This document shows, piece by piece, positions 36,475-59,869 of a stretch of DNA of 64,000 bases. The notes under the pieces are model-generated. The model was given only the letters and a program-made list of their open reading frames with translations. It had not been told where the DNA came from and searched no databases. Both the position numbers and the translations under genes were made by a program. This DNA is from Opitutales bacterium (GTDB lineage Bacteria > Verrucomicrobiota > Verrucomicrobiia > Opitutales > JABSRG01), in contig JANQKZ010000035.1 in NCBI GenBank assembly GCA_028280845.1, positions 124,001 to 188,000 on the forward strand, read 5' to 3'. How positions within the stretch are numbered: the first letter of the stretch is position 1; each line of letters starts with the position of its first letter.

Positions 36475-37959
36475 TTATTGGTAACCGGGCAGCCATTGGG
36501 CCTCTGCTTTAAACAACTCGAGGGTCATTTTTTTTATTTCCCCTGGTGAACATACCGCACTGGTCAGCGGGTCGAGGGTGAGGGCATAGATGGCCATTTC
36601 TTTGCTCTTTTCAATGGCGGCCTGGGCCCCCAGGTCGAATACGTTCATGTTGCTTCGGCAGAGGGCGGCCATCTGCCGGGGGAGGGCCCCGTAGCGGGTG
36701 GGGTTGTAGCCATTGCGATCAATCATGGTGGCCACCTCGACGCAGCCGTCTGAGGGCAGGTTGCTGATGAGAGAGCCGCCGTCGCCCTGTTTGTTGTAAA
36801 CATTACCATGGATGCGGAAGGGGTGGTCCTTCTCTCGGGCCTCGATGATCCAGGAAGCATATTCCCAGCTGCGGTCCCAGCGGATGGGGGTCCTGCCCTT
36901 GATCATGTCCTCACGCTCCTTGTCCATTTGGGTTCTCCAGTTGGGCCAGTGATCGGCGTAGAAGCTGGAGGTGCCGTCATAGGCAGGGCGCATGTATTTC
37001 TGGAGCAGGTCCCGGCGTTTGCGATAATAGGGCAGGTATTCGGAAAGGTGGCCACTGGATTCGGTAATAAAAGCCCCGAAATGTAGCATCATATCTTTGC
37101 GCACGAGGTCACGGTGGTGCTCGGGTCGCTCGATACTGAGGGGGTCAATATTGCCCTCGGGGTCCTGCCAGCCTTCTTTGAAGGCCTTGCGTAAGTCTTC
37201 GCGGGTCCGCTTTTTCAGTTGGGGATAGAGATCCTTTCCCTGGTGCTGAAATTTGGTAAACCATGCAAGGTGATTGATGCCCGCGCACTCCCATTCGATT
37301 TCTGAAAGCGGGATTCCCACCCGGTTGGCGAGGAGTTGGCTCGTGCCCTGGACCGAGTGGCAGAGGCCGACGACGGGGATATCTGAGGTGCGGAAGGCGG
37401 CCAGGCACAACATGTTCATCGGGTTGGTATAGTTGAGGACCAAGGCCCGTGGGCAGTAACGCTCCACATCCTTTAAGATTTCGAGCCAGACAGGAATGGT
37501 TCGCAAGGCCTTGAACAAGCCGCCGGGGCCGATGGTATCTCCGATGCATTGATCCACCCCGTATTTGGCGGGAATGTCATTGTCGAACCGGACGCATTCC
37601 AGGCCACTGACTTCGATGCAGTTGACAATGTAATCCGTGCCCCTGAGGACCTGTTTGCGGTTTGTACTGGCCAGTACTTTCCAGCTTTTCTTTCCCAGCT
37701 GGCGCAGGCGTTTCTTAATGAGCATGGTCATGCGCTCCAGGCGATCTTCCGCGATATCGACCAAGGCGATCTCCCCTCCCAGGTTTCCGGGGATGGAAAT
37801 CACATCGTTGACCAGTCTCGGGGTGAACATGCTGCCGGCCCCCAACATAGTGATTTTAATTGGCCGGTCCATGGCGCCGGGAAGCCCCGGTTCAGCCGCC
37901 GCCTTCACGTGTGCTGCGTGACCTTTTTCAGTGTCCAAAACCGCTTTTACTTTAGCCAT
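36475..37959 (-). CDS. glycoside hydrolase family 4 (alpha-galactosidase-type)
   Basis: KITMLGAGSMFTPRLVND NAD site; GLCHSVQGTS motif; WECAGINHLAWF. Confidence 0.93.
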   Translation of the reverse strand: MAKVKAVLDTEKGHAAHVKAAAEPGLPGAMDRPIKITMLGAGSMFTPRLVNDVISIPGNLGGEIALVDIAEDRLERMTMLIKKRLRQLGKKSWKVLASTNRKQVLRGTDYIVNCIEVSGLECVRFDNDIPAKYGVDQCIGDTIGPGGLFKALRTIPVWLEILKDVERYCPRALVLNYTNPMNMLCLAAFRTSDIPVVGLCHSVQGTSQLLANRVGIPLSEIEWECAGINHLAWFTKFQHQGKDLYPQLKKRTREDLRKAFKEGWQDPEGNIDPLSIERPEHHRDLVRKDMMLHFGAFITESSGHLSEYLPYYRKRRDLLQKYMRPAYDGTSSFYADHWPNWRTQMDKEREDMIKGRTPIRWDRSWEYASWIIEAREKDHPFRIHGNVYNKQGDGGSLISNLPSDGCVEVATMIDRNGYNPTRYGALPRQMAALCRSNMNVFDLGAQAAIEKSKEMAIYALTLDPLTSAVCSPGEIKKMTLELFKAEAQWLPGYQ

Positions 37960-38133: not shown

Positions 38134-39132
38134 ATGAAAGTACTGTTTATCGGTGGAACCGGCAATATCAGCGCGTCCTGCAGCCGACTGGCCCTTCAAC
38201 GCGGGATCGATCTCTATATCTTAAACAGGGGGAAACGTCCGCTGGAATTGGATGGCGCGCAGTCGATTGTTTGTGACATATCGGATGAGGCCGAGGCAGA
38301 GGAAAGACTGAAGGGGATGGCGTTTGATGTGGTGGCCAACTTCATCGCGTTTACTCCGGCTGATGTGGAGCGGGATATTCGTTTGTTCAAGGGAAAGACC
38401 AGGCAGTACATCTTTATCAGTTCAGCCAGCGTATACCAGAAACCCCTGTTGCACCCCTTTGTGACGGAATCCACACCCCTGAAAAATCCTTACTGGGCGT
38501 ATAGCCGGGATAAAATTGCCTGCGAGGAATTGCTGGTGGAAGCTTATCGTAAAGGAGATTTTCCTGCCGTCATTGTGCGCCCGTCACTGACTTATGATAC
38601 GGTGTGGCCGGTGGCGATCGGGGCCTGGGAGGATTACACCTTAATCGACCGATTGAGAAAGGGGCAAAAAATCATCGTGCATGGGGATGGAACCTCGCTT
38701 TGGACGGTGACCCATTCCATCGATTTTGCAAAAGGGTTCGTGGGCTTGCTCGGGAATTATACGACCTTGGGGGATTCCTTTCACATCACCTCAGATGAGG
38801 TGCTAAGCTGGAATCAGATCTATGAGATCATCGCCGACGCTGTGGGAGTGGAGGCAGATATGGTTCACATTCCCTCGGCCTTTATTGCGAAAATGGTGGA
38901 TTGGATGGAGGGCAATCTGTTGGGAGATAAAGCCCAAAGTACCATATTTGATAACAGTAAAATCAAGCGCTTTGTGCCCGATTTCAAAGCTACCATACCG
39001 TTCCATGTAGGAGTCCGGAAGACCCTGGCCTGGTTTGAATCCAAACCGGAGCGCATGCGGGTCGATGACTACACCAATGAGATGATGGATGGCATCATCG
39101 CGAAATATGAATCGGTTTATAACACGTTATAG
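38134..39132 (+). CDS. NAD-dependent epimerase/dehydratase (SDR)
   Basis: MKVLFIGGTGNISASCSRLAL; SSASVYQ...YSRDKIACEELL. Confidence 0.92.
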   Translation: MKVLFIGGTGNISASCSRLALQRGIDLYILNRGKRPLELDGAQSIVCDISDEAEAEERLKGMAFDVVANFIAFTPADVERDIRLFKGKTRQYIFISSASVYQKPLLHPFVTESTPLKNPYWAYSRDKIACEELLVEAYRKGDFPAVIVRPSLTYDTVWPVAIGAWEDYTLIDRLRKGQKIIVHGDGTSLWTVTHSIDFAKGFVGLLGNYTTLGDSFHITSDEVLSWNQIYEIIADAVGVEADMVHIPSAFIAKMVDWMEGNLLGDKAQSTIFDNSKIKRFVPDFKATIPFHVGVRKTLAWFESKPERMRVDDYTNEMMDGIIAKYESVYNTL

Positions 39133-39161
39133 GAAGCGGTAACATTGTGGTAGATGGTAAA

Positions 39162-40145
39162 ATGAATCTGGGTGTTGTGGGATGCGGGGATTTTCTCCGT
39201 TGGCAGCTCCCGGGAATCCGGGCTTCGGCCCACCTGAACGTGACCGGGGTGTACGATCCGGTGGAGGAAAAGGCCGGGAGAGCGGCCACGCAACTTGGCG
39301 CTCGGAGGTTTAGCAGTTATGAGTCGCTCCTCTCGGATGCAGCTATCGATATGGTGGCCCTGTTCGTTCCCCCGATGGTACGCCTGGAATCGGTAGAAAA
39401 AGCGGTTTCCGCCGGAAAACATATCATCACCACTAAACCTCTGGCCTCGAATGTGCCCGAGGCCAGGAAGATCTGCGAGGTGGTAGGGTCTCGGGTCAGG
39501 GTCGGTGTCATTTACCGTCGGACAGGAGATCGCCTAATGGATACCTTGAAGTCGATCTTTGAGGCGGAGACTTATGGCAAGCTAGCTCTGCTGAAGATGG
39601 ACTGGTTGCATCACTATCCCCAGTGGAATAACTGGGCTCTGGACCCCGAAAAAAATGGGGGGCCCTTTATGGATGCCATGATCCATAACCTGAATATATC
39701 CCGCTACCTGATGGGGCGACCGATCGAAGAGAGTTCCTTGTTGTCGCTCAATCTGGCCCACCCCGACCTCGCTTGTTGTGATACGGAGCGGATGACGGTG
39801 AGGTTTGTCGAGAACGGGGTGGCAGACCTGTTTATTACCTGGGCGGCGGACCTCGCGGTTTATGGTCTGGAGGGCAATGATCGCGAGCACATGGAGCAGT
39901 TCTTCATGGTCACGGACAAGGGGTGGTTGCTGAAACCGGATGTGGTGGATGACCGGCCGGTGATCCGGGTCTCCCGTGCGGGAGAAAGGCAAGCGCTTCC
40001 CCTGCTGGAAGAAAGTGCCACTTTTTACGACCTGTATGTTGAAGCGGTGTTAAGGGACACACCCAACCCGGCAACTCTGCCCACTCTGGAGGAAGCCCGG
40101 GAAGATATTGAACGGATCACCCTGCCCGGCCCGGGAGGAAACTAA
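39162..40145 (+). CDS. Gfo/Idh/MocA family oxidoreductase
   Basis: NLGVVGCGDFLRWQLPGIRASAHLNVTGVYDP; KHIITTKPLASN; alternative GTG start at 39147. Confidence 0.92.
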   Translation: MNLGVVGCGDFLRWQLPGIRASAHLNVTGVYDPVEEKAGRAATQLGARRFSSYESLLSDAAIDMVALFVPPMVRLESVEKAVSAGKHIITTKPLASNVPEARKICEVVGSRVRVGVIYRRTGDRLMDTLKSIFEAETYGKLALLKMDWLHHYPQWNNWALDPEKNGGPFMDAMIHNLNISRYLMGRPIEESSLLSLNLAHPDLACCDTERMTVRFVENGVADLFITWAADLAVYGLEGNDREHMEQFFMVTDKGWLLKPDVVDDRPVIRVSRAGERQALPLLEESATFYDLYVEAVLRDTPNPATLPTLEEAREDIERITLPGPGGN

Positions 40146-40160
40146 GGAGCGAGTGACTCT

Positions 40161-41180
40161 ATGAAATTGAAAGTCGGAATCATTGGATCGGGACTGATTG
40201 CCTCCAAACACGCCGCTATTCTTAAGAACAGGGATGACGTCGAAGTCGCGGCGGTGGTTGATATTTTACCGGGAAAGGCAGCTGAATTCATCAAGAAACG
40301 AGATCTGAATGGAGCGAACGGTTATGAGGTCTTTTCCCTTATGCTGGAATCGGAAGACCTGGACGCACTCTATTTCTGCATCCCTCCCTTCTCCCATGGG
40401 AGGGAGGTGGAGGAGGCTGCAGCGAAGGGAATCCATGTATTTCTGGAAAAACCGATTGCCCTGGATTCAGCCAAGGCCGAACGAATGGTGTCTGCGATCG
40501 AGGATAATAGCGTGATTTCCCAGGTGGGATTTCATATGCGCTTCTTCAGGGGGGTTAAGCTTTTGCGGGAGAAGATGGCGGAAGGATTGGTGGGTCGGCC
40601 ACTCCTGATGTCATCGCGCTACTGGGCGAATTTCCAGGGACCTGATTGGTGGAAAGATGTATCCCGCTCCGGAGGGCAGGTGTTTGAGCAGGTGTGCCAT
40701 TTATATGATTTGTCCCGATTTTTCCTGGGGGAACCCCGGCGGGTTCATGGTGCCCTGGCCAACCTGACCCGGGGAGCTGAGCCGGATTATACGGTGGAAG
40801 ATACGTCCTGTGCTATTGTCGTATTTGAAAATGGGGGAATGGCTTCTTTTACGGGTTGTAACAATGCCTTGCCCGACCGGTTTATCGGCGATTTCCGAAT
40901 CGTCTGTGAGAGGGCGGTCCTGGAGTTGCATTCCACGGGGGATTGGAGGGACAAAGAAGTATCCAAACTTTACCTACATGACGGATCGAAGATCCAGGAT
41001 TGCATAGAACTGGTTGAGGATGGGGATCCCTACGGTGAAGAGACGGAGGATTTTATCAGGGCCATTAAATCCAAAGAGCAATCAACTACGCCCGCGCGGG
41101 AGGGCTTAAAGACGATCCAGCTCATCGAGCGTGTACTCGCGGATGCCAAGGCGGTGAACCAGCCGGTGGCGGCCGAATAG
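40161..41180 (+). CDS. Gfo/Idh/MocA family oxidoreductase
   Basis: KVGIIGSGLIASKHAAILKN; GIHVFLEKPIALDS. Confidence 0.95.
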   Translation: MKLKVGIIGSGLIASKHAAILKNRDDVEVAAVVDILPGKAAEFIKKRDLNGANGYEVFSLMLESEDLDALYFCIPPFSHGREVEEAAAKGIHVFLEKPIALDSAKAERMVSAIEDNSVISQVGFHMRFFRGVKLLREKMAEGLVGRPLLMSSRYWANFQGPDWWKDVSRSGGQVFEQVCHLYDLSRFFLGEPRRVHGALANLTRGAEPDYTVEDTSCAIVVFENGGMASFTGCNNALPDRFIGDFRIVCERAVLELHSTGDWRDKEVSKLYLHDGSKIQDCIELVEDGDPYGEETEDFIRAIKSKEQSTTPAREGLKTIQLIERVLADAKAVNQPVAAE

Positions 41181-41187
41181 CTATTTT

Positions 41188-42195
41188 ATGAATCAACAAC
41201 CTAAACTGTTAGTAAATTTACCGCCGACCTTTTTTACCCACCCCAGTTTAAAGGATGAATATATCCGGCTCAATGAGCTGGCGGATGTGCGTTATCGGTC
41301 GCATAACTCGCCGGAGGAGATTGAGGAGGACCTTACCTGGGCCGATTCTGTAATCATGTGGTCGTGGCCCCTGTTCTCCGGGGAGTTGCTCGACAAGGTG
41401 GGTGGTCTGGAATTTGTCGGCCAGATCAACTCCGGACGTCAAACCGTGGAGAATTGTTTGAGTCGGGGCATTCCGCTTTCGGAAGCCCGCCATGCCTGGT
41501 CTCCGGCGGTGGCGGAGATGGCGTTGGGCCTGGTTTTGAATGGGCTCCGCCGGATCAGTGATTTTCATGCGGCGATGCGAGAGTCCCGGGAGGAGTGGGT
41601 GGTGCAGTTTCCGGAGGATATCGACGTTCAGGAACGGGAATTGGCCGGGGCCCAGGTGGGCATAATCGGCTTTGGAGGAATTGGAACCCGCTTTGCAGAA
41701 CTCCTGGCCCCCTTTCGAACCACCCTGCGGGTGTATGACCCATTCGTGAGCGAGTCGGCGATGGAAGAATTTGGGGCGAAAAAAACCGGTTTGAGTGAGG
41801 TGTTGAGCCAGTCGGAGGTGATTGTGACTTGTGCGGCCAATTCCAGGGAAAATGAGGGGATGATCGGGGCCGTTGAGCTCAACCTGATCCAAAGCGGGGC
41901 AGTCGTGGTGAACGTGAGTCGGTCGATGTTGTTCGAAACCGAAGCTCTACTTGCCCGTGCCCGGAAGGGCGATATTGCGCTCCTGCTGGACGTATTCGAC
42001 CAGGAACCGCTGGAAAAGGATAGCCCATTCAGAAAGCTCAAAAATGTATACTGCACCCCTCACCGGGCGGGAGGAATCATTCCCTCTGTGCAACGGGCCA
42101 TTCATGCATTGATTGCCGACTACGAGGCCTGCCTGAAGGGGAAGGATATGGAGATGAAGGTGACCGAAGACATGCTGGTTTGTTTTTCTGAATAG
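41188..42195 (+). CDS. D-isomer-specific 2-hydroxyacid dehydrogenase
   Basis: AGAQVGIIGFGGIGTRFAELLAPF; VVNVSRSMLFETEALL; DVFDQEPLEKDSPFRKLKNVYCTPHRAG. Confidence 0.93.
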   Translation: MNQQPKLLVNLPPTFFTHPSLKDEYIRLNELADVRYRSHNSPEEIEEDLTWADSVIMWSWPLFSGELLDKVGGLEFVGQINSGRQTVENCLSRGIPLSEARHAWSPAVAEMALGLVLNGLRRISDFHAAMRESREEWVVQFPEDIDVQERELAGAQVGIIGFGGIGTRFAELLAPFRTTLRVYDPFVSESAMEEFGAKKTGLSEVLSQSEVIVTCAANSRENEGMIGAVELNLIQSGAVVVNVSRSMLFETEALLARARKGDIALLLDVFDQEPLEKDSPFRKLKNVYCTPHRAGGIIPSVQRAIHALIADYEACLKGKDMEMKVTEDMLVCFSE

Positions 42196-42228
42196 GGCTT
42201 CGGGCGCTGAATTAAAAACCGTGAGGAT

Positions 42229-43797
42229 ATGATTATGTGGCAAATACCTATATTTCGGATTGGATGGTTGGTTGTATGGATGAGTGCGGGCTTGGTGGCC
42301 GGGCAGGAGAAGCGTTTTCCCGTCGCGGGAATCAATGCCGGGTGGCAGGATTTCTCGCCCGAGACGACGGCCCTGGCCTTCCCCAATGTTATCAAAAACG
42401 CGTCCCGGTGGACGGGGGGTCCCTTTGAGGCCGATGCCTTTGGATACCCGCTCCGGTTAGAAGAGATGAATGAAGCGGTCATCAGTGTGTTTCGAGACAA
42501 CGCGCGGCATTACCCTCTGGGCGATTACACGCTGGCCTGGGAGGGCAAAGGGCATATCGAAGTGAGGACGGCCGGGAAGCGTTTCAAATTTACTCCCGAG
42601 GACCAGAACCGGCAGATCATCCCGATCGAAGCGCACTCGGATTACGGTATTCAGATCTCCATTCGCTGGGTGCCAATGGGGAACCACATCCGAAACCTGC
42701 GGCTTTTTCTTCCCGGGCACGATGAGTCGTCCGGGTTCTGGACGGAGCACTATGTGGAGGATCTCAAACCCTTCGGCTTGTTACGGTTCATGTGGGGGAG
42801 TGGAGCGTGGAGCTTTTATGAGGTGGAACATTGGGAACAGCGCAGGTCGGTAAAAGACTATCACTGGATGGGTGGAGACGAAGCCATGGGCATCCCCTAC
42901 GAAGCCATGGTGGACCTGGCCAACCGGACAGGGAATGATCTTTGGGTGTGCGCCCCGCATCGGGCGAATGAGGAATACATGCGGAAAATGGCTGAGTTTT
43001 TCCGTGATCACCTGGATCCCGAGCTGACCTTCTGGATCGAGTACAGCAATGAGTATTGGCTGGATATCGATTTTTTCAAAATTGCCCCGAATGACTATCT
43101 GCAGGAGGAGGTGGCTGCGATGCCGGAATCGGCCGGCATGACGGTCGATCGCCTGTATGCGCAGAAGGCGATCCGGTTGTTTGAAATCTTTACCGAAGTT
43201 TTCGCCGAAAAGGGACAGGAGGACCGGCTCATCCGGGTGGTCTGCGGCTGCGCGGCGGAGGCGTCTTTCCTCGAGGAACTGGCTAAGGAAATCGATCGTC
43301 TCGGTAAGATGGATCTGGTGGATGCCATGGGGATCGGACCGTATTTCCGGCCCAACGAGGAGGAGACGCATTTCGAGGAAGCCCTGGATAAAGGATGGGA
43401 TGCCATCTTTAAATCGGTGCACCGCACCCTCGATGACATGTTCGACCCCCAAGGCATCGTGGGTGAGCACATGTATCGCAACGCGGCAGTTGCAGAAAAG
43501 TATGGCAAGAAGCTGGTGGCCTATGAATCTGGCCAGCACTACACGACGTGGACCAATACTCCGGGTCATATCATTGCGCCTATGAACCGCCGACCGGAGA
43601 TGTACGAAGTGTATCAACACTTTTTCCGGGGATGGGAGAGCCTGCCTGGGGCTTCGACCCTGGTACTCTTCCAGGCCTGTTCGCTCTACAACGACCACGA
43701 AGCGTTTGGATTGCGCGAATACTACGACCAGCCTGAGGAAGAATTACATAAGCGCCGGTCGACCCTGGATTGGATGGCTTTAAGGGGTGAGAGGTGA
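42229..43797 (+). CDS. exported putative clan GH-A-like protein (uncharacterised family, paralog A)
   Basis: Signal peptide; TFWIEYSNEYW and KLVAYESGQHYTTW; homologous along its length to the 50253 ORF. Confidence 0.75.
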   Translation: MIMWQIPIFRIGWLVVWMSAGLVAGQEKRFPVAGINAGWQDFSPETTALAFPNVIKNASRWTGGPFEADAFGYPLRLEEMNEAVISVFRDNARHYPLGDYTLAWEGKGHIEVRTAGKRFKFTPEDQNRQIIPIEAHSDYGIQISIRWVPMGNHIRNLRLFLPGHDESSGFWTEHYVEDLKPFGLLRFMWGSGAWSFYEVEHWEQRRSVKDYHWMGGDEAMGIPYEAMVDLANRTGNDLWVCAPHRANEEYMRKMAEFFRDHLDPELTFWIEYSNEYWLDIDFFKIAPNDYLQEEVAAMPESAGMTVDRLYAQKAIRLFEIFTEVFAEKGQEDRLIRVVCGCAAEASFLEELAKEIDRLGKMDLVDAMGIGPYFRPNEEETHFEEALDKGWDAIFKSVHRTLDDMFDPQGIVGEHMYRNAAVAEKYGKKLVAYESGQHYTTWTNTPGHIIAPMNRRPEMYEVYQHFFRGWESLPGASTLVLFQACSLYNDHEAFGLREYYDQPEEELHKRRSTLDWMALRGER

Positions 43798-43919
43798 TTC
43801 CCCCATTCCGCCGTCCGCCAGGACGACGGAAGTGCTGGGTAGCGAGAAGACGGAGTCTAGGGGACAGAGGTCGGAGAATTTTGAAAAGGTAACATATCAA
43901 AGGAAGCAAAGGTGAATTC

Positions 43920-46130
43920 ATGAGCAAAATTTTCTATATCCTCATCCCGCTTGGCATCGTTTTTGGTGGCATCGCAGCCATCGCCGGAGATATTCAGCCG
44001 AAGAATGTGGATGCCCTTTATGCCGGGGAATCCATTGTCTTGCAGAACGAGGAGATCAAGATCGTGTTCTTCAAACGGGAGGTCGGGGTTCACCCGGCCC
44101 AGAAAGACGGATTCAGCTGGGCGGAGATTTATGGCCCGGATGATTCCGGGACCCTAAACCGTTACCTCGGGGTCATTGAACACTTCGGTGAGGTGGATAT
44201 TGAGGGGCAGAACCATCCGCTGAGGATGGATGCCCTTGATCACAAAATTGAGAAAATGCGGGAGGGTACCCGGATTACCTTTACCACGGAAATTCAGATC
44301 CCTGAAGAAGGGGTCATGACCTGGGGCAATGTCATTTCCGTTCGGGGAGAGGCTATGTTTTTTGTGCCCAAAGAGGGAAACTGGGTAGAGTACGACTTGC
44401 ATATGGAACCGGAATTCCGGGTTAATTTTCGCAGCGTGAGGGGTCCCTGGGTGAGGGTGGGAGCCTATGATTTCGGGGCGGAAAAACGAGATGCGATTTT
44501 CAGCGGGCTGGAGTGGTTGCAGGGCAAGGAATGGTCCAGCAGCGTGGATTACTTGGCGCCTGAGGAAGCGCTGCGGGTAACCCCTCACCCGAGAAAAGTG
44601 ACGGCCCCCGTCATGGCCGTTGGTCTGGACGGTCTGGCCCTTTCCCTGAGCTGGGATCCCCACCTGAATTCCTTGAGTGTGTTGAGCCGGGACCGGCATC
44701 CCCAACCTGTTTTCGCCTGCCCGAACTTTATTGATAAACGGGACGATAACCTGATGGGTCTGATGTTTCCCTCATCCGGGTATGGTATGGAGGAAAATGA
44801 CCTGAGGATCTATAAACCTCTGATGTTTCCGGAGCAGGGGATCCGGTTTCATTCACGCATTACGGTGTCTCCCGGGACCAGCCTGGATGCAATTTCCAAT
44901 TGGGTGAAAACAAACGGGTTTCCCGACCCGGGTGAGGAGCGGTTTTCCAGGGAAGATTTACTGGACCGGGTGGCGGCGGCCTATAATGCCCAGTTCTGGG
45001 AGAAAGGCGTGGGCTGGACCTACCACAAGGAATACCCGGATGAATTCTTCCACGGGGTGGCCTGGTATCTGGCATTGACCGTAGGAGAAGTGATCAAAAA
45101 GAAACCATCCTATTATGTGCCGGAGGTCGTGGATTATTATATAAAGCACGGAAAGGATCCCTCTCTGGTGGCGGGCTTGAAAGAAAAAGCCGAATGGTGC
45201 CTGTCCCAAGGGTATTATTCCAAGCGCAAACCGTCGGGAAAGAGCAGATTGAAGGCTTATCCTGAGCTTTTCGACTGGTATCCCGATGAGACCTTGAGGG
45301 CCTACGGGGAGGCCATCCTGGATTGGCAAACCCCGGAAGGATACTTCCCCTACGAGCCGGATGGGCGCCACTTAACGGAACACAACACCATGGCACGGAA
45401 TTACCGGCCTATCGGGCAACCCGGGGATGTGGAGATTCTGGATTTTTATATGACTTCCTCCATCCTGTTACTCACGCTGGGAGACGCCCTGGATGAGCCA
45501 CGGTTCATCGAAGCGGGTCGAAAGGCACTGGAGGTAGCCATGCCCCTGGAGCGGCCCGAAGGTGGCGACTGGTGGGAAATTCCCGTGCATGCGCCGAACT
45601 ATTACACGGCGGGGTGGGGCGCCATCGCCTACTATCTGGGCTACGAGATGTTTGGAGACCCCAAATACAAGAAGCGGTCCATTCATTTCCTCCGGGCTCA
45701 ACTCCCCTTTACCTACATCTGGGAGTCCCCTGTATTCCCTCTCAGCTACCATACCAAGCCGACCTTTGGCGGAACCGGGTGGCGCTATATGGCCTGGCAC
45801 AACCGATGTGTGCACTGGGAGGGGGTTTCCATTATCCATATGTCGAGGCAACTGAAGTTCGACTGGAATCTGGTCGATCCGGAAATGGATTGGGATCAAT
45901 ACCAGGCGGGCATTTTGACTGCTGGTTTGCGGCTCCTGGCCGACAGCAAAGACCCGGACTGGGTGAAACTCAGTGAAGATGTCGACGAGAAGTTTAAGGC
46001 GGGAAAGATGGATATGTTCATCGCCGACACCTTCGACCCGGTCGCCAAGCTGTATGGGGGCCTCATCGTCCGGATTGCCCCTGATCCCCTTGTGATGTGT
46101 TCCCTCGACCGGCTCTGGGAGAACCAGTAG
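43920..46130 (+). CDS. exported (alpha/alpha)-barrel-like protein, putative glycoside hydrolase/lyase
   Basis: 736 aa; signal peptide; beta-rich N-terminal half, helical C-terminal half (GWTYHKEYPDEFFHGVAWYLALTVGE...DWWEIPVHAPNYYTAGWGAIAYYLG). Confidence 0.7.
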   Translation: MSKIFYILIPLGIVFGGIAAIAGDIQPKNVDALYAGESIVLQNEEIKIVFFKREVGVHPAQKDGFSWAEIYGPDDSGTLNRYLGVIEHFGEVDIEGQNHPLRMDALDHKIEKMREGTRITFTTEIQIPEEGVMTWGNVISVRGEAMFFVPKEGNWVEYDLHMEPEFRVNFRSVRGPWVRVGAYDFGAEKRDAIFSGLEWLQGKEWSSSVDYLAPEEALRVTPHPRKVTAPVMAVGLDGLALSLSWDPHLNSLSVLSRDRHPQPVFACPNFIDKRDDNLMGLMFPSSGYGMEENDLRIYKPLMFPEQGIRFHSRITVSPGTSLDAISNWVKTNGFPDPGEERFSREDLLDRVAAAYNAQFWEKGVGWTYHKEYPDEFFHGVAWYLALTVGEVIKKKPSYYVPEVVDYYIKHGKDPSLVAGLKEKAEWCLSQGYYSKRKPSGKSRLKAYPELFDWYPDETLRAYGEAILDWQTPEGYFPYEPDGRHLTEHNTMARNYRPIGQPGDVEILDFYMTSSILLLTLGDALDEPRFIEAGRKALEVAMPLERPEGGDWWEIPVHAPNYYTAGWGAIAYYLGYEMFGDPKYKKRSIHFLRAQLPFTYIWESPVFPLSYHTKPTFGGTGWRYMAWHNRCVHWEGVSIIHMSRQLKFDWNLVDPEMDWDQYQAGILTAGLRLLADSKDPDWVKLSEDVDEKFKAGKMDMFIADTFDPVAKLYGGLIVRIAPDPLVMCSLDRLWENQ

Positions 46131-46193
46131 GCGAGCTGGGTGAAGCCATCCGGAATGGCAAATCCTTTTAACCTCTTAAGACCTCAATCGACA

Positions 46194-47618
46194 ATGTATG
46201 CAAACCGGATCCTGGAACGCACTCTGGATTTTTCCAGGGGCTTATGCCTTTTAATCTTCATCAGCCTCCTGCCGGCTTTTGGAGAGCTCCCTGTGCTCCA
46301 CGAAGGGATTCCTGAAACCCGAGTGGGCACCCCGCTCTACTATAAATCGGGAACCACGTATTTTTATGTTTCCCGTGGTTACACCGACCCGTCTGATGAA
46401 AATTTCTGGGATGGGCAGGACAGCTTCCTTATCCGCATTCCCGATTCGCTTCAGAAAGTGCGGGGGATCATCATCCAGCCTGATGGGATGGGCTCCCCTC
46501 AGGAGGATGATCCGGATTATATCCGTTATGCCGCGGCACTCGGGTTCGCCACGGCAGTTTCTCCCTCCAATAAAATGGATTACGATCTGGCCCTGCGGGT
46601 GTTTGCCTCGGACGGGAAGCACCCCGAGCTGCCCAATGTCCCTTTTATTGTGGCGGGTAATTCCGCGGGCGGATGGGGGACCCTGCGCATCGCCTCCTGG
46701 ATGCCTGACCGCACCATTGCGTTTTTCCCCAATGTGACCGCTCCGGCCCGGGTACTTGACCAGGTAAACCTGGATCACCCTATCTACACCTTGCCGGCCA
46801 TTTATGCTGTGGGAGAGTTTGACGGGTTAGTTCCCTATGGCCCCCCGGAATACGATCGGGTGATATCGAAGGGCCGCCGGTTGGGATCCCCCTGGGCCTG
46901 GTTTATGCACCAGGACCGCGGGCATGAAACGGCCCTGGTCAGTTTCATCTTCTTCCCCTTCATGGAAAAAATGATAGCGACGCGTTATCCGGAGACGGAG
47001 GACCCCTCCACCGGCCGGGTGAGTCTGCACCCCGTTGATCTGAAATCGGGTTTCCTCGTAGAAAAACGTGAATACCCGGATCCTTACACATGGAGGCAGT
47101 CGGACTTGGAGGCGGAGTTCTTCCCCTCCATCAAACCGGACCAGGTCGGGACGGTGTATGAGGATCATTATTCGGTTCGCCCGGGGCCTGCCCGGATCTG
47201 GGCTTTTGTGGACTACACCGGAGACCCGGCGGATGTTCATTGGCTGCCGGACCTGGATCTCGCCTACCTTTTCCGCGGGGTGGCCGCCTGGAACCGGAAA
47301 CTGGACCTCACCCTTTCCGATTTTGACTTTCCGGCTCACAATATGAGCGCCCCGATCCGTCCTCCCGGATCCTCCATCGACTTTCTATGCAAGGTGGCCG
47401 AGGGGTTTGAATGGTCCCGGATCGACCTGTTCCGGGGAGCTGAATTAATAGATTCTGTCCGCCCTGAGCAGGTCGTTGACCCGAAGCAGTTCACCCTATC
47501 CCATATCGTAGAGGCGGATGGAATTGCACAGGGCTTTGTCCTGCTGGGATATGACCTAAAAGGGCAACTGGCTCAAGTATCCCAACCCACCTGTTTGTTG
47601 GCTATCCCGGAATCATGA
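46194..47618 (+). CDS. exported alpha/beta hydrolase (esterase-like)
   Basis: Signal peptide MYANRILERTLDFSRGLCLLIFISLLPAFG; nucleophile elbow IVAGNSAGGWGTL; late HQDRGHE; alternative GTG start at 46140. Confidence 0.78.
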   Translation: MYANRILERTLDFSRGLCLLIFISLLPAFGELPVLHEGIPETRVGTPLYYKSGTTYFYVSRGYTDPSDENFWDGQDSFLIRIPDSLQKVRGIIIQPDGMGSPQEDDPDYIRYAAALGFATAVSPSNKMDYDLALRVFASDGKHPELPNVPFIVAGNSAGGWGTLRIASWMPDRTIAFFPNVTAPARVLDQVNLDHPIYTLPAIYAVGEFDGLVPYGPPEYDRVISKGRRLGSPWAWFMHQDRGHETALVSFIFFPFMEKMIATRYPETEDPSTGRVSLHPVDLKSGFLVEKREYPDPYTWRQSDLEAEFFPSIKPDQVGTVYEDHYSVRPGPARIWAFVDYTGDPADVHWLPDLDLAYLFRGVAAWNRKLDLTLSDFDFPAHNMSAPIRPPGSSIDFLCKVAEGFEWSRIDLFRGAELIDSVRPEQVVDPKQFTLSHIVEADGIAQGFVLLGYDLKGQLAQVSQPTCLLAIPES

Positions 47619-47876
47619 ATGCTGGCCCTGTTATCCATCGGGGAAGGGATTCACCTGATCCCTGCTCTCAAATGAGCCCAGAAAAGAGTATTACCCATAC
47701 AAGAGTGGTTGGTTTTATCCATGCTTTTCAGGAGTTCGAGTGGCCTGGCGAAATAAAGGGAGACATTCGTCGACTTTCCCCTGAAGCAGCCAGCGCGGTT
47801 CAAGACCGGGTGGAAATCGAGCGAGCCGGGCAAGTCACCACGCAATTTAAAATGGGAGGAAAGGGGCTCTTCTAAG

Positions 47877-48803
47877 ATGAAGCGGACTCCAGAAATTGAC
47901 TTCAGCCAACCCCATGGGTTAAAGGTGGCGCTCTGCCAGGTGGCGACCGAGGAATGGAATGTATCGCAAAACGTAGAGCGGACCCTGGAGTCCCTGATCC
48001 TGGCCGGGGAGAAAGGAGCTCATGTCGCGGTCACGCCGGAATGCGTGTTCACCGGGTACCCCTGGATTGATTCGTGTGAGAAACAGGAGCAATTGATCCG
48101 GGTTTCGGACGAGATCCCATCTCCGCAAATTGACCGGGTAGTTGCACTGGCGGAGCACTACCAAATGGCTGTAGTCCTTGGGGTCTCGGTCCGATCAGGT
48201 TGTCGGCTTTACAACTCGGCCCTCTACATCAGCCCGGCGGGAAGATTGGAGCGGGTCTATGAAAAAGTCCACTGCCGGGCATTTGAGGATGCCGCTTATG
48301 GGAAACACTACAGTGCGGGAGAGGAGTTCTTTGTGGTGGATTTCAGACATGATTCCATCCATGCGAAATTGGGGATCATGATCTGTTTTGACCGGGAGGT
48401 GCCCGAGAGTGCCCGGTGTTTGCGTGCCCTGGAGGCTGAGGTCATCCTATGCCCCCTGGCTTGCGATACCTCGGTCATGGCTGACCAATATTACGATTAC
48501 GCGGACAACGAAATCATTACCCGAGTGCGGGCAGCGGAAAACGAGGTCTATTTCGTGGTGGTGAACCACGCGGAACCACGGTTCAACGGGGGCAGTTTCG
48601 TGGTGGGCCCGGGAGGAGAGTTAGTTCAGCAACTTGGCCCGGTGGCTGACGTGCAGGTCGTCGGCCTGCCCCTGGAACCGTTGCGAGTCATGCACGAGGA
48701 TCCCTTCGGTCAGAATGGATGGGGTTACCGCAAGGAGGCGCTTTATGGCAGGTATTTGAGTCCTGAGGGCCGCTCATCCTTAACCCACTCCCACGATTCA
48801 TGA
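47877..48803 (+). CDS. carbon-nitrogen hydrolase (nitrilase superfamily)
   Basis: Glu-Lys-Cys triad: VTPECVFTGY, VYEKVHCRAFE, GIMICFDREVPE. Confidence 0.93.
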   Translation: MKRTPEIDFSQPHGLKVALCQVATEEWNVSQNVERTLESLILAGEKGAHVAVTPECVFTGYPWIDSCEKQEQLIRVSDEIPSPQIDRVVALAEHYQMAVVLGVSVRSGCRLYNSALYISPAGRLERVYEKVHCRAFEDAAYGKHYSAGEEFFVVDFRHDSIHAKLGIMICFDREVPESARCLRALEAEVILCPLACDTSVMADQYYDYADNEIITRVRAAENEVYFVVVNHAEPRFNGGSFVVGPGGELVQQLGPVADVQVVGLPLEPLRVMHEDPFGQNGWGYRKEALYGRYLSPEGRSSLTHSHDS

Positions 48804-50221
48804 ATTCCGTGTCATCCGCCTCTGGAGCCTCGGTTCCAACCAAGGTCCCGATGTACAATAAAATCTCCTACGGGGCGGGGAGCATGGCGGATATCGTAAT
48901 GCAGGAAACGATCGAACTGTATGTGGTGTATTTCTACATCACCACCATGGGGATCAGTCCGATGATGGTTGGCCTGGCCGTCATGATCCCTCGTTTGTGG
49001 GATACGGTAACTGACCCGGTGATGGGGAATATTTCGGACAATTTCCGGTCCCGTTGGGGACGTCGGCGGCCGTTTATTGTTCTTGGAGGAGTTCTCATCT
49101 GCATTCCCTTCACGATGGTTTGGATGGTACCGTCGTCCCTTGGGGAAGTGGGGATCCTCCTCTGGTTTGTGGTCTGCATGCTGGGGTATAGTACGTTTTA
49201 TACCGTTTACTTTGTCCCCTATTTTTCACTGGGGGCAGAAATGTCGACGGACTACAACGAGCGCACCCATATCGCTTCCGTCCGTATGTTTATTGGTCGC
49301 ATTGCAGGGTTGGGCATGGCTCCGGTTTTTGAGCTGGTTTATAACAAAGACCTGTTCAGTAACGAGCAGGTGGGTTTTACCGCGGTGGCCCTCGTTTTCT
49401 CAGCGCTGACGATTGCTGGGGCACTGTGGGCCGTATCCACGACGCGTGAAGCGACCTACGTCCAGACCCAGGAGAAGATCAATTTCATCGAGGCGATTCG
49501 ATATACGCTGAGAAACGGACCGTTTGTGATCCTGCTAATCGTCACTGTGGTGAGTGGCGTCGCTTTTTGGTCCGTGCTCCGCCTGGGCCGTTTCGTCAAT
49601 GTTTATTATGTGCATGGCGGGTCTGAATCGAGCCTGGGACGAATCAACACGATCGCCGAGCTGATCAGCGTTTTTGTGGCCTTTGCCTCCATTATCCTGG
49701 TCGACCGGATGTGCAAATATTTTGGGAAGCTGGCAGCCCGCATTGTGCTGACCACCATTGTCATGTTTTTGCAGATGTCCTCGTGGTTTCTGTTTAACCC
49801 GGATCACCCCTATCTCTACCTGTTCTACGCCGCTGGTACGGGACTCCTGTATGCGAGTACCCTCATTTATACCGCCATGATCCCGGATGTGGCCGATGAC
49901 GATGAACTGAAAACGGGTTTACGGCGGGAAGGCATGTTCTTCGGGGTATGGGGCTTGTTTGGAAAACTCACCTTTTCGATCGGGCCCCTCTTAAGCGGGA
50001 TCATTCTGGAGTTGATCGGATTCAAGGAGGGGCAGGAAATGCAGACTGAACACACCCTCTGGTGGATGCGGTTTATCTTTGCCTTCGGGGCCGTGCCCCT
50101 GTCAATCGCCACCATCCTTGTCCTATTCAAATACCCGTTGACCGAAAAACGTGTTCGGGCCATGCGGGCTGAGCTGGATAAACGACATCTGGATTCGGAT
50201 GAGGAGGGACCCTGCGAATAA
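48800..50221 (+). CDS. GPH-type MFS sugar symporter (copy 2, paralog of 34963 ORF)
   Basis: Shared IPRLWDTVTDPVMGNISDNFRSRWGRRRPF, FWSVLRLGRFVNVYYVHGGSESSLGRINTIAE, HTLWWMRFIFAFG. Confidence 0.93.
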   Translation: MNSVSSASGASVPTKVPMYNKISYGAGSMADIVMQETIELYVVYFYITTMGISPMMVGLAVMIPRLWDTVTDPVMGNISDNFRSRWGRRRPFIVLGGVLICIPFTMVWMVPSSLGEVGILLWFVVCMLGYSTFYTVYFVPYFSLGAEMSTDYNERTHIASVRMFIGRIAGLGMAPVFELVYNKDLFSNEQVGFTAVALVFSALTIAGALWAVSTTREATYVQTQEKINFIEAIRYTLRNGPFVILLIVTVVSGVAFWSVLRLGRFVNVYYVHGGSESSLGRINTIAELISVFVAFASIILVDRMCKYFGKLAARIVLTTIVMFLQMSSWFLFNPDHPYLYLFYAAGTGLLYASTLIYTAMIPDVADDDELKTGLRREGMFFGVWGLFGKLTFSIGPLLSGIILELIGFKEGQEMQTEHTLWWMRFIFAFGAVPLSIATILVLFKYPLTEKRVRAMRAELDKRHLDSDEEGPCE

Positions 50222-50252
50222 GTGCTATCTGCCGCTCGGCTGGCCGACAAAC

Positions 50253-51923
50253 ATGAATCTAAGTTGTAAACCAATGATCGCTATCAAACTATTCCCCATT
50301 GTAGCTATACTAAACCTGCTCTTGAGCGCCCCCGGTGTTTTTGCGGGTAAACTCAATCCGGAGACGCTTCCCCGCACGGGATGTAATATGAATTGGGCCT
50401 CGTTTCATCCCACTTCTCCATCCCTGCCCCTGACAAATGTCCTGCGCATTGCTGACAACTGGTCCAGCGCGGCCTCATTTGAGCGCGACGCGCGGGGTTA
50501 TCCGACCCGATTGAATCCTGGTGAGGCGGCCACGACCCGATTCTTTGGACAGAATCCATATCCCACCGGCCCTGAGGCAGTCTACACCTTGCGATGGGAA
50601 GGACGGGGCACGCTGGAAATCGCCTATAGAGGGGGCCTTTACCGGATAGATGAAAAAGCGAAGAGTCCGATCAAGTTGACCTTTCCGGAGGGAACCAAAG
50701 GGCCGGTAGAACTGACCATTTTGAGCACTGATCCCACGGATCGCCTGCGAGATCTGCGTTTCTATCTGCCGGGTTATGATGATGGTTCCAACACCTGGAC
50801 GGATCATTTTCTGGAGTTCTATTCAAACTTTGACATTGCCCGTTTTTCCTGGGGCGCGGCCGTCAACCATGAAAACGCCAGCCATATCGTGGAGTGGGAA
50901 GATCGCCGCCCGCCCACTCATTTCACTTATGGGATGAGCCCTGAGCTGGGTGAGGACTATGGTGTACCCTACGAGGTGATGATCGAGCTTGTGAATACAC
51001 TGGACATCGACCTGTGGGTAAACATCCCGCACCTCGTTTCGGATGATTACCTGCGAACGGCTGCCCGCCTGTTTCGGGATCAACTGGAGCCTGGGCGCCG
51101 GGTCTGGATCGAATTGGGCAACGAGGTGTGGAATAACTGGTTCCCGGCATACCATGACTTGACTGAGGAAGCCAGGCAGGCCACGGCAGTGGAGCAGCGC
51201 CAAGTGTATCTCGGCCACATATATGGACGGCGTGCGCTGAACATGTTTCGCATTTTCGGGGAAGTATTCAGCATAACCGGGGACCGCCACCGACTGGTTA
51301 CTGTCCTGGCGGGCCAATCTGGCTGGTTCCAGCCCATGGAACAGGCTTTCGGTGAAATTGAACGCGAGGGTGGGGTGGATGCAATCGATGTGCTGGCCAT
51401 CGCTCCCTACTTCGGCCCCAACAAGTATGAGGGGGAGCAGCGACTCAAGGGATTGATTGAGGGGAAATCTCCGACGGATTATGAACTGGACGATCCCTTT
51501 TGGAATGAGATTGAGGATGTCCTGCGGTGGGCTATCGATAATCGATTTGATCCCGTCCACGAAGGCGGGGCGGAAAATATGAAGTACCGGGCCCTCAGCC
51601 TGCGAACGGGCATACCGCTCGTGGCTTACGAGGGTGGTCAGCATGTAGAGTCGTTCAGCGGGGGTGAAGAATGGATCGGGCCCTGGGTTGCCCCGATCAA
51701 CCGGCACCCGCTGATGGTCCGTCTCTACGAATATTACCTGGATGCCTGGCAGCAGTTTAGCGGCCACACCTTCCTCTTTCATGTGGATATTGAGCCTGCC
51801 ACTTCCGATTCCGCCTTCGGTTTTAAAGAGACTTATCTCCAGCCTGACGAAGAGGCGGTGAAATTTGCCTGGTACCTCGACTGGCGCGCACGTCAACTGG
51901 CTAAACAAAAGGAAACCCCATGA
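50253..51923 (+). CDS. exported putative clan GH-A-like protein (uncharacterised family, paralog B)
   Basis: Signal peptide; RVWIELGNEVWNNW and PLVAYEGGQHVES; paralog of 42229 ORF. Confidence 0.75.
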   Translation: MNLSCKPMIAIKLFPIVAILNLLLSAPGVFAGKLNPETLPRTGCNMNWASFHPTSPSLPLTNVLRIADNWSSAASFERDARGYPTRLNPGEAATTRFFGQNPYPTGPEAVYTLRWEGRGTLEIAYRGGLYRIDEKAKSPIKLTFPEGTKGPVELTILSTDPTDRLRDLRFYLPGYDDGSNTWTDHFLEFYSNFDIARFSWGAAVNHENASHIVEWEDRRPPTHFTYGMSPELGEDYGVPYEVMIELVNTLDIDLWVNIPHLVSDDYLRTAARLFRDQLEPGRRVWIELGNEVWNNWFPAYHDLTEEARQATAVEQRQVYLGHIYGRRALNMFRIFGEVFSITGDRHRLVTVLAGQSGWFQPMEQAFGEIEREGGVDAIDVLAIAPYFGPNKYEGEQRLKGLIEGKSPTDYELDDPFWNEIEDVLRWAIDNRFDPVHEGGAENMKYRALSLRTGIPLVAYEGGQHVESFSGGEEWIGPWVAPINRHPLMVRLYEYYLDAWQQFSGHTFLFHVDIEPATSDSAFGFKETYLQPDEEAVKFAWYLDWRARQLAKQKETP

Positions 51924-54346
51924 AATCCTGCTCCATCCCCATCGTACCCCTGCAATGGCTAAAGATCACACTCCCTGTCAGCATGGTCTGTGGTTTACTA
52001 TCGATTGCCATTAACCTGGCCGCACAACCCAATGTCCCCATCGACCCTAAGTATCAGAACGAGCAATGGGATGCCTGGTGGATTACTCATCCCGAAGCCA
52101 GTCTGTACAATTACGAAGTCTTGAATTTCCGGAAGACCTTCGATCTGGAACAGCTGCCCACTTCCTTCTGGGTCCATGCCTCCGCGGATAACCGCTACGA
52201 GCTGTTTGTGAATGGAAAGCGGGTCTGCCGTGGTCCGGCTCGGGGAGATTTCCTGAACTGGTTCTATGAAACCGTCGACCTGGCGCCCTACCTGAAAACC
52301 GGGACAAACTGTATCGCGGCCCTGGTATGGAACGGGGGAGAGTACAAACCGATGGCTCAGATCTCTGATAAGACCGCATTCATTTTACAGGGAAATGCAG
52401 ATCATGCCCAGGTGGTCAATACGGATGAATCCTGGCGGGTCCTGCTCAACCCTGCCTACAGTCCGATCATATACCTGGACAATGACATCAGGCTTCACTG
52501 GGAGTATTATGTTGCGGGGGTCCTGGATGCCATTGATGCCCGCGAATACCCATGGAATTGGGAAACCCCGGGCTATGATGACAGAGATTGGGATACTCCC
52601 CGGCAACTGGATAGACCTTACCCGGCAGGCCGAAGTTACCATCACAAATGGGGGATGACTCCACGGGTGGTCCCCCTGTTGCAAGAGCAGTCCCACAAAG
52701 TGGACCAGATCGTCCGGATTCGCCCCGCGCTGCCCGGGATCAAATCGCGAGCACCGAAACTTCCGCTTCACATCCCGGCAAACACCCAAGTGGAAGTCCT
52801 CTTTGATTACGGTGAGGTGGCCCACGGATACCCTGAGGTCCTGGTTTCCGGGGGTAAGGGAAGCCAGATGAAAATCCGCTATGCGGAAAAATTCATCCTG
52901 CCTGGGCGGGAATCCGGCCATCGTGACGTCATCCAGGATAAACTGATCGGGATTCATGATGAGTACACGAGTGACGGGGGGAGTGAGCGCCAGTTTCGTC
53001 CTCTCTGGACCCGCACCTTCAGGTGGCTGCAGCTGGAGATTCAGACAGAAGACGAAGGCCTCACCATAAATGATGTCGCCTACGCATCGGTGAACTACCC
53101 GACCCGCATCACGGCATCATTCAGCAGCGACGACCCGGTTCTCGAGAAAATATGGGATGCCTCTATCAGAACTCAGGTCCTGTCCGCCCAGGAGACATTC
53201 GTCAGTGACCTCTACTGGGAGCAGATTCAGTACGTGGGAGATACCAATGTGCAGGGCTTGTGTTACCTGTTCCTGACTGGTGACGATACGTTATACAAAC
53301 TCGCTCTTAAGCAGATCGATGATTCGCGGTTGCCCTCCGGGCTGACTCAGTCCCGCTACCCGTGCAACCTGGTGCAGTTGGGCCCCTCCTATTCGCTTTC
53401 CTGGGTCACTATGCTATACGACTACTGGATGTATGGGGAGGATCCAGAATATATATTTCAGTTTCTACCGGGCGCGGAACAGGTTCTGGAATGGCATGCC
53501 CGGAACCTGACCGAAAATGGGCTGTTGCCCAGTCTGGGTTTCATCGACTGGGCGTTTATCCCGCGGGTGGAACAAATCCGGGAGCTTGGCGAGAACACGG
53601 AATCCACCGTGCATTCCCTGTTCCTGGCCTTCACCTTGAAGCAGGCGTCCGAACTGTTCAGGGCTGCGGGAATGCAGTATCAAGCGGACCGATACATGGA
53701 TTGGTATCGGCAGCTCATCCAGACTATTCGATCCCGCTGTTTTGACCCTGAAAAAGCACTGTATGTGGATGTCCCCGGAACGGATCTTGTCAGCCAACAC
53801 ACGAATGTAATGGCGGTTCTGGCCGATGCCAGCACCGGACGGGAAGCCACGGCCCTTTTGGATAGGGTGCTGAACGATGAAACCCTTCTGTGGGCAGACA
53901 TGTATTTTAAATATTACCTTGGAAGGGCGCTACGGAAATCCGGCATGGGTGGACATTACCTCGATACCATTGAACCCTGGCGTCAGGCCATAGATATGGG
54001 GATGACCAGTTTTGGTGAAGCGATGACCGAGCCGCGCTCTGAGTGCCATGCCTGGAGCACGAGCCCGGCTTTTGAATTCCTTTCCACCATCTGTGGAATA
54101 GAGTCCCTTGCCCCCGGTTTTGCTTCCATTCAGATCAAGCCGGAATTGAATGGCCTTGAGCATGTTGAGGGCAAGATGAAGCACCCTGATGGCATGATTA
54201 GCGTGGAGCTCTGGCGGGAGGATCAGCGGCTGAAGGGTCAGGTGTCCACTCCCCCAGGGGTGCCGGCGGAATTCATCCATGGAGCTCAATCCATTCCCTT
54301 GAAGGGTGGAGTTCAGGAGATCGACCTGCCCTGGGAAGGGTCCTAA
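51920..54346 (+). CDS. GH78 alpha-L-rhamnosidase (exported)
   Basis: N-terminal WVHASADNRYELFVNGKRVCRGPARGD; catalytic region DLYWEQIQYVGDTNVQGL; C-terminal FGEAMTEPRSECHAWSTSPAFEFLSTI. Confidence 0.92.
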   Translation: MKSCSIPIVPLQWLKITLPVSMVCGLLSIAINLAAQPNVPIDPKYQNEQWDAWWITHPEASLYNYEVLNFRKTFDLEQLPTSFWVHASADNRYELFVNGKRVCRGPARGDFLNWFYETVDLAPYLKTGTNCIAALVWNGGEYKPMAQISDKTAFILQGNADHAQVVNTDESWRVLLNPAYSPIIYLDNDIRLHWEYYVAGVLDAIDAREYPWNWETPGYDDRDWDTPRQLDRPYPAGRSYHHKWGMTPRVVPLLQEQSHKVDQIVRIRPALPGIKSRAPKLPLHIPANTQVEVLFDYGEVAHGYPEVLVSGGKGSQMKIRYAEKFILPGRESGHRDVIQDKLIGIHDEYTSDGGSERQFRPLWTRTFRWLQLEIQTEDEGLTINDVAYASVNYPTRITASFSSDDPVLEKIWDASIRTQVLSAQETFVSDLYWEQIQYVGDTNVQGLCYLFLTGDDTLYKLALKQIDDSRLPSGLTQSRYPCNLVQLGPSYSLSWVTMLYDYWMYGEDPEYIFQFLPGAEQVLEWHARNLTENGLLPSLGFIDWAFIPRVEQIRELGENTESTVHSLFLAFTLKQASELFRAAGMQYQADRYMDWYRQLIQTIRSRCFDPEKALYVDVPGTDLVSQHTNVMAVLADASTGREATALLDRVLNDETLLWADMYFKYYLGRALRKSGMGGHYLDTIEPWRQAIDMGMTSFGEAMTEPRSECHAWSTSPAFEFLSTICGIESLAPGFASIQIKPELNGLEHVEGKMKHPDGMISVELWREDQRLKGQVSTPPGVPAEFIHGAQSIPLKGGVQEIDLPWEGS

Positions 54347-54413
54347 GATGAATCCCGGGTTCAACGAGTCATTAGTGAAGTCTTATGCATCCGATTTATT
54401 CTCTCCCCTAGCC

Positions 54414-54854
54414 ATGAAAATTCTGCAATTACCCTGCCTTTTGTCTTTCACCCTGGTGTTCACTGCGTGCCAAACGACCGAACAAGGAATGGAAGAGCCT
54501 TTTGCCGAAGCGTCTCCGGGTTATGTCAAAGATATGCTCTTACTGGCAGGTCTCCAGCAGGAGGCCGTGCTCGAACAGATCGGGAGTCCTGAACAACGTG
54601 TTTCCACCCGCTACCTCGAGCAAGCTGCTGAAGTCTGGATTTACAGCGAGCTGATCCGGAGTCATTCCACCTCTGAGATTGTAGACTTCAATGAGTTAAC
54701 ATACGTGGACCAGAATACCGGTGCCAGCCGAACGGTGAAGACCGGGGTAACGGAAAGTGTGGTCGTAAAGACCTACTGGGTGACGGAGTTGATATTTGTG
54801 GACGGAACGCTGAGAAAATGGAACGAGGGTGAATTGGATAAAAAGGCCTACTAA
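54414..54854 (+). CDS. small lipoprotein
   Basis: MKILQLPCLLSFTLVFTAC lipobox from internal ATG. Confidence 0.72.
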   Translation: MKILQLPCLLSFTLVFTACQTTEQGMEEPFAEASPGYVKDMLLLAGLQQEAVLEQIGSPEQRVSTRYLEQAAEVWIYSELIRSHSTSEIVDFNELTYVDQNTGASRTVKTGVTESVVVKTYWVTELIFVDGTLRKWNEGELDKKAY

Positions 54855-58332: not shown

Positions 58333-58505
58333 GCACTCTTACTAGTGGTATTCAATAAGGAAGGCAATGCGTTTGCATCAACATAACGGGAGGTATGCTC
58401 AATCGCTTCCTGTGGCCCAGTTCAATCCATGGGTATATCGGGATCGCCCAAGGGAGACCCCTGCCGGATCGATGGACTTTGAACAGTTAGGGAGTGAGCC
58501 GTCGG

Positions 58506-59435: not shown

Positions 59436-59869
59436 TTGATTAAATATATTCATCCTGTTTCTGATGTGCCACATAAACCTTTTGAGGGCCAAAGGAATCG
59501 TTTCCAATTTCTCAAAAAAGAATACAGAGGGATAGCTAGACAGATTTCTCATAGGGGGGTTGCCCCGGAGGTGACAGCCTGTTGCCTTCCCTTGACTAGG
59601 TTTACCGTTTTTTTGACTGCCAACGCATTTTATTCATCGCCTTGGTTCGGTGGAGCATTAGCCTTTGCAGGGGAAAGCGATTGCGTAGAAAAGGTGTTTG
59701 AGAATTATTGACCCCTATGAGCCCCATCAAGCCGACTCCTCAGGTTCGCATGGGTTTATACTCCATTAGGCATTCCTATTGTTGAGCCAAAAACATTAAG
59801 TATTCCGGAAGCTGGACACGCCCATAGACGATCTTTCCTGAGACAGTAACCCGTTAATCCGCATATATC

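Follow-up and report, generated by a model that had tools for sequence, protein, structure and literature searches.

Positions 38134-54346 of the window analysed here (64,000 nucleotides on contig C6 of the 4.79-Mb draft genome of an Opitutales bacterium, phylum Verrucomicrobiota) carry eleven tightly packed genes, which raise the question of whether they form a single system for degrading a glycan and, if so, whether its pathway is of a new kind. We consider it probable that the region is a glycan-utilisation operon, in which digestion by exported enzymes is followed by import through a cation symporter of the GPH family and by oxidation in the cytosol; a preliminary description of the locus had likewise proposed catabolism of a glycoside with import by a GPH symporter, a proposal that the gene content supports well. 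The cluster is ordinary in kind for its phylum, and its novelty lies at the level of the enzyme families. Three of the predicted exported enzyme types have no match in Pfam or NCBIfam; among them is a putative glycosidase that represents a large, widespread and uncharacterised family.

From the gene content we infer a substrate and an order of reactions in which a glycan or oligosaccharide containing rhamnose would be cleaved outside the inner membrane by a pair of glycosidase paralogues of clan GH-A, a barrel-type enzyme (a hydrolase or a lyase), a probable esterase and an alpha-L-rhamnosidase of family GH78, and the cleavage products would then enter the cell via the GPH cation symporter. 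In the cytosol, an SDR-family protein, two Gfo/Idh proteins and a 2-hydroxyacid dehydrogenase would act by oxidation or reduction on a sugar other than rhamnose or on a sugar acid, a nitrilase-superfamily amidase may remove an amide or ureido group, and rhamnose would pass to a RhaA/microcompartment pathway encoded elsewhere in the genome.

Gene order, spacing and predicted location of the products

The open reading frames (ORFs) confirm the order and direction described earlier, with all eleven genes present and co-directional. Seven of the proteins are placed by Pfam in agreement with their earlier labels, i.e. Epimerase (SDR), Gfo/Idh (two proteins), 2-hydroxyacid dehydrogenase, CN_hydrolase (nitrilase), MFS_2 (the symporter) and GH78. 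The GH-A-like proteins A and B, the (alpha/alpha)-barrel protein and the alpha/beta hydrolase have no match in Pfam or NCBIfam; their earlier names are supported by predicted structure for the first two types and by motif alone for the hydrolase, but not by family membership. The gene order and the seven family memberships can be read from the DNA itself, as can the catalytic-type residues and the RhaA and microcompartment genes considered below.

With the start of GH-A-like B set at 50253, the intergenic spacing is, 5' to 3', 14, 15, 7, 33, 122, 9, 258, -4, 31 and -4 nt. The 4-bp overlaps reported previously at 48800/48803 (nitrilase/symporter) and 51920/51923 (GH-A-like B/GH78) are both correct; the upper limit of about 120 nt given for the gaps is not, the widest being the 258 nt (47619-47876) between the end of the alpha/beta hydrolase gene at 47618 and the start of the nitrilase gene at 47877. 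This gap is filled by an 86-codon ORF (47615..47875, +) of uncertain gene status, which shares 4 bp with the 3' end of the hydrolase gene and is separated from the nitrilase ATG by a single nucleotide, bringing the number of 4-bp overlaps within the operon to three if it is included. Its codon score of 0.02 lies about 3 standard deviations below the values for in-frame operon segments (0.31 +/- 0.09) and about 3 above those for out-of-frame segments (-0.50 +/- 0.18), and it has no family match and, among the loci compared, no homologue except itself; it could be either a genuine small gene or the remains of one. Promoter-like sites number 9, below the 12.6 expected from shuffled sequences, and terminator-like sites are in mild excess (26 versus 19.4 +/- 5.0 expected). 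The genes are presumably co-transcribed.

By inspection, all five hydrolase-type proteins have hydrophobic N termini resembling signal peptides, and none was seen on the SDR, Gfo1, Gfo2, 2-hydroxyacid dehydrogenase or nitrilase-superfamily proteins. We infer export of the former group, and the oxidoreductases, the amidase and the GPH symporter look cytosolic or inner-membrane.

Predicted exported enzymes

GH-A-like A (42229..43797, +) and GH-A-like B (50253..51923, +) are putative exported glycosidases of one family. The best fold matches of the AlphaFold model of B (mean pLDDT 85.8, pTM 0.86) are to clan GH-A, chiefly GH2 beta-glucuronidases, with Foldseek E values down to 9.8e-7 and TM-scores of about 0.2-0.35 by query length. 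E290 and E459 (B numbering) are invariant in 73 of 73 aligned sequences. The pattern used to collect relatives contained E286, N289 and E290, so that their invariance in that set is partly by construction; E459, R196 and Y385 lay outside it, and E286, N289 and E290 are also invariant in alignment A1 (17 sequences, 15 of them from a whole-protein search), where A has the catalytic-type glutamate pair. The pair thus displays the hallmarks of clan GH-A, i.e. a (beta/alpha)8 barrel (from the model), an acid/base glutamate following an asparagine and a nucleophile glutamate, with the activity itself being predicted.

Protein B has the predicted barrel, the N-E motif and the second glutamate after a tyrosine in common with clan GH-A glycosidases (GH2 beta-glucuronidases, GH50, GH53 and GH39), but differs from them in having only about 10-13% identity, a TM-score of about 0.3, no sequence match to a solved family and no Pfam model. 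All 17 aligned members lack a match to any catalytic family of Pfam, the family profile finds no relative among solved structures in the PDB, and phmmer searches of the PDB with the unclassified proteins gave nothing significant; neither A nor B can thus be placed in a named GH family by Pfam, NCBIfam or PDB sequence matches. A literature search for an already published clan GH-A family with these features found none, which is weak evidence of absence.

In the phylum sample, which comprised about 378 genomes (388 for the barrel protein), including one other genome of the host's family, 16 other genomes have relatives of the pair, and a pattern-based scan of a genome collection found at least 585 loci. 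The best 80 of these come from Planctomycetota, Verrucomicrobia, Lentisphaerae, Armatimonadetes, Thiotrichaceae, cyanobacteria, actinobacteria and others. A and B group as sisters in the tree (support 0.997), and we read them as the products of an old duplication. At about 9 of 83 loci (e.g. L062, L101, L105, L113 and L135) the relatives have glycosyltransferases, a Wzx-like flippase or a putative polymerase as neighbours, and sulfatases are also found close to relatives; part of the family may act in exopolysaccharide assembly.

The second unclassified type is an exported protein of 736 residues (43920..46130, +; alignment A2), with a predicted beta-sandwich and (alpha/alpha)-barrel. Its model, of low confidence (mean pLDDT 58.9, pTM 0.70), has a beta-rich half followed by helices, and its best fold match is the PL27 lyase BACCELL_00875 (5NOK/5NO8; E=1.2e-7, TM 0.26), with lesser matches to GH129, cellobiose phosphorylase, GH116, PL26 and others. 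The PL27 enzymes, which are L-rhamnose-alpha-1,4-D-glucuronate lyases, have the same architecture as the model (PMC8377490), and a PL27-like architecture next to a GH78 gene is suggestive. BACCELL_00875 and the barrel protein, however, are only 8-9% identical, the TM-score of 0.26 refers to a low-confidence model, and there is no profile match. Assignment to PL27 was rejected at the sequence level, a family profile search of the PDB giving no PL27 chain; GH127 was also considered, but only 3 of 15 relatives match it weakly (best E=0.0014) and the window protein does not.

Relatives of the barrel protein are present in 10 other sampled genomes, at about 23-28% identity over long stretches; a scan of the contig collection with this protein alone found nothing. 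Among the 60 alignment columns that are conserved in 13 or more of its 14 relatives, it differs at 25 (D560N, Q550D and R547E are examples), whereas each relative departs at 0-12 columns by the same count. It thus represents an outlying subfamily of an unclassified family, and its activity may differ from that of its relatives.

The third type is an exported alpha/beta-hydrolase-like protein (46140..47618, +), which we regard as a putative esterase on the basis of its motifs, i.e. a GNSAGG elbow with S175, together with candidate residues D228 and H262. Its relatives, in 7 sampled genomes, are 23-28% identical.

The fifth hydrolase-type protein is the GH78 alpha-L-rhamnosidase (51920..54346, +), in which PF17389 (57 bits versus a cut-off of 24.5) and the three companion domains PF08531, PF17390 and PF05592 all score above the Pfam cut-offs. 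The genome has four PF17389 matches, of which this is the weakest. Among solved structures it is closest to RhaB (2OKX, E=8.2e-45), with which it has the full four-domain Pfam architecture in common. In the alignment with 2OKX, acidic residues stand opposite E434, D441 and E700, and which of the three are catalytic is an assumption on our part; one aspartate of the active site segment is, in contrast to RhaB, one residue off in the alignment (S/D at 429-430).

Proposed import and cytosolic steps

The symporter gene (48800..50221, +) encodes a GPH-family (MFS_2) protein, with PF13347 (E=4e-80) far above its cut-off and TIGR00792 slightly under (220 bits versus 231). The preliminary description had stressed the lack of SusCD. 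That lack is real, the SusD family PF07980 having no match in the whole genome (a control in Bacteroides was positive), and the cluster has no SusC/SusD pair of the type that defines Bacteroidota polysaccharide utilisation loci (PULs). It is not, however, a distinguishing feature: metagenome-assembled genomes (MAGs) of North Sea Verrucomicrobiota are reported to have no SusCD genes and to carry PUL-like units with other putative sugar transporters (PMC8857213). Because SusD is absent genome-wide and SusCD is reported absent from those MAGs, the missing pair is uninformative. The combination of glycosidases (GH78 and the GH-A-like pair) with a non-SusCD transporter (the GPH symporter) is that of the PUL-like clusters of the phylum, which have glycosidases (GH78 in some), carboxylesterases and symporters without SusCD, as here (PMC8857213). 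The operon differs from those clusters in having no sulfatase or fucosidase and in adding two unclassified GH-A-like enzymes, the barrel enzyme and four oxidoreductases. Elsewhere in the window, a gene resembling those of TonB-dependent receptors lies at 17183-20764, its Plug domain (E=7e-4) being under the cut-off.

Microcompartment loci for rhamnose and fucose have been described in these bacteria (PMC5615132, PMC8857213), and the present genome has such a locus on contig C42 (L227, G000:C42:8000-26000), with RhaA, three BMC-domain matches and PTAC, EutN/CcmL, aldehyde dehydrogenase and class II aldolase-like genes. A RhaT-like symporter gene is in the window (59948-61039, +; 424 bits versus an equivalog cut-off of 468). 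Given these genes outside the operon, the operon dehydrogenases are probably not required for rhamnose set free by GH78 and presumably act on another product. Of the earlier suggestion of a rhamnosylated substrate, rhamnose as a product is plausible, from the comparison of GH78 with 2OKX and from the RhaA/microcompartment genes, but the substrate is still a guess.

The four oxidoreductase genes lie at the 5' end of the operon and encode an SDR of the NAD-dependent epimerase/dehydratase family (38134..39132, +; PF01370, E=1.7e-16), two Gfo/Idh/MocA oxidoreductases (39147..40145, +; PF01408, E=1.2e-17, with PF22725; and 40161..41180, +; PF01408, E=6.6e-23, which aligns with the dehydrogenase 3EZY) and a D-2-hydroxyacid dehydrogenase (41188..42195, +; PF02826, E=2.9e-42) with the catalytic-type residues R245, E273 and H292. 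A variant compatible with the operon as a whole is that it feeds oxidative cleavage of glycosides, the Gfo/Idh enzymes oxidising C3 and a 3-keto-glycoside hydrolase or lyase encoded elsewhere cleaving the product. The two Gfo/Idh proteins are each weakly similar to the model of the disaccharide 3-dehydrogenase BT_2159, and the genome contains 25 matches to PF06439 (3-keto-disaccharide hydrolase). The scores (44.5 bits for Gfo1 and 27.2 for Gfo2) are, however, far under the 650-bit cut-off and are exceeded by those of general inositol-dehydrogenase models, and no operon protein matches PF06439 in the Pfam search. Thus, the operon shares the Gfo/Idh superfamily with the Bacteroides 3-keto-glycoside pathway (BT_2158/BT_2159 models), but, unlike that pathway, it has no partner enzymes and its Gfo/Idh scores are far from the model cut-offs; we consider this route unlikely. 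A literature search on Gfo/Idh enzymes found nothing relevant. A partial PF06439 match with an in-frame TGA, likely a gene remnant, is present at 14556-14729 (-).

The last cytosolic enzyme is a nitrilase-superfamily (carbon-nitrogen hydrolase) amidase (47877..48803, +; PF00795, E=7.7e-36), in which the E-K-C triad is intact (E55/K130/C170). No equivalog model for N-carbamoylputrescine amidase or nitrilase was passed, the best reaching 79 bits versus a cut-off of 410. Homologues of 44-48% identity occur in 3 other sampled genomes; in one of these (locus L210) the neighbours include a gene of the KDPG aldolase family (PF01081) and one for a Gfo/Idh protein. The ester- or amide-linked substituent previously proposed for the substrate is unsupported, the amide drawing only on the nitrilase-superfamily fold with its intact triad, the nitrilase being under the equivalog cut-offs and the esterase being identified by motif; the role of the nitrilase, like the substrate of the operon, is a guess. 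The bolder proposal of an undescribed pathway, in which the new GH-A-clan paralogues and the new barrel hydrolase or lyase open a rhamnosylated glycan beyond the reach of characterised enzyme sets and the amidase strips an amide or carbamoyl group from an imported sugar acid, is in our estimate unlikely.

Unity of the cluster, its neighbours and its significance

Several observations weigh against a glycan-utilisation operon. The gene combination was found in none of the roughly 378 sampled genomes of the phylum, there is no regulator gene inside the operon, and, with relatives of the GH-A-like pair standing beside polysaccharide-biosynthesis genes in several other bacteria, membership of that family alone does not imply catabolism. 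When the operon proteins were compared with other loci by tblastn, no shared cassette was found around the GH-A-like, barrel, SDR or nitrilase homologues; the conservation of synteny by which the preliminary description would have had the cluster judged was thus not found among the sampled genomes, in which the host's family has one other member.

A split of the region is the alternative that these data bring to mind, with two or more adjacent modules of different substrates, 38134-47618 (oxidoreductases and GH-A-like A) and 47877-54346 (nitrilase, GPH symporter, GH-A-like B and GH78), having been joined by the GH-A-like duplication. The sole large gap falls between the two, each half has one of the sister paralogues, and SDR homologues of 49-65% identity occur in many genomes without the other operon genes, bar a weak 2-hydroxyacid dehydrogenase neighbour in three. 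Full-length SDR homologues in this identity range are found in 18 genomes of the phylum sample, away from the operon's other genes, and homologues at E<=1e-30 in 58 of 378 genomes (its own included), i.e. the SDR alone is common. The 86-codon ORF, if counted, closes the gap, however, and the region has no excess of promoters; we judge the split to be doubtful. A role of the cluster in remodelling or recycling exopolysaccharide made by the cell itself, instead of one in degrading a food glycan, as the glycosyltransferase, flippase and polymerase genes near some GH-A-like relatives could suggest, is very improbable, given that no glycosyltransferase, flippase or export gene lies in or beside the operon, that it has a symporter and cytosolic dehydrogenases, and that GH-A-like relatives also lie near sulfatases.

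A single glycan-utilisation operon, our preferred reading, may have further genes beside it. An alpha-galactosidase-like GH4 gene (36475..37959, -; PF02056 and PF11975; PRK15076, 474 bits versus a cut-off of 486) is divergent from the operon, 174 nt from its start, and adjoins a gene for a second GPH symporter (34963..36366, +), 59% identical to that of the operon; both are probably in the same regulon as the operon. Directly 3' of GH78 there is an ORF of up to 182 residues (54306-54854, +) with a lipoprotein-like start and no significant Pfam match, and a ThuA-family gene pair (57553-59552, -) lies near the RhaT-like symporter gene.

The characterisation of glycan clusters without SusCD in Verrucomicrobiota is still poor. 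The operon described here ties a GH-A family of at least 585 loci, for which there is no Pfam model, to a probable catabolic setting that includes a symporter and an enzyme of GH78, and would thus provide a starting point for assigning an activity to that family.
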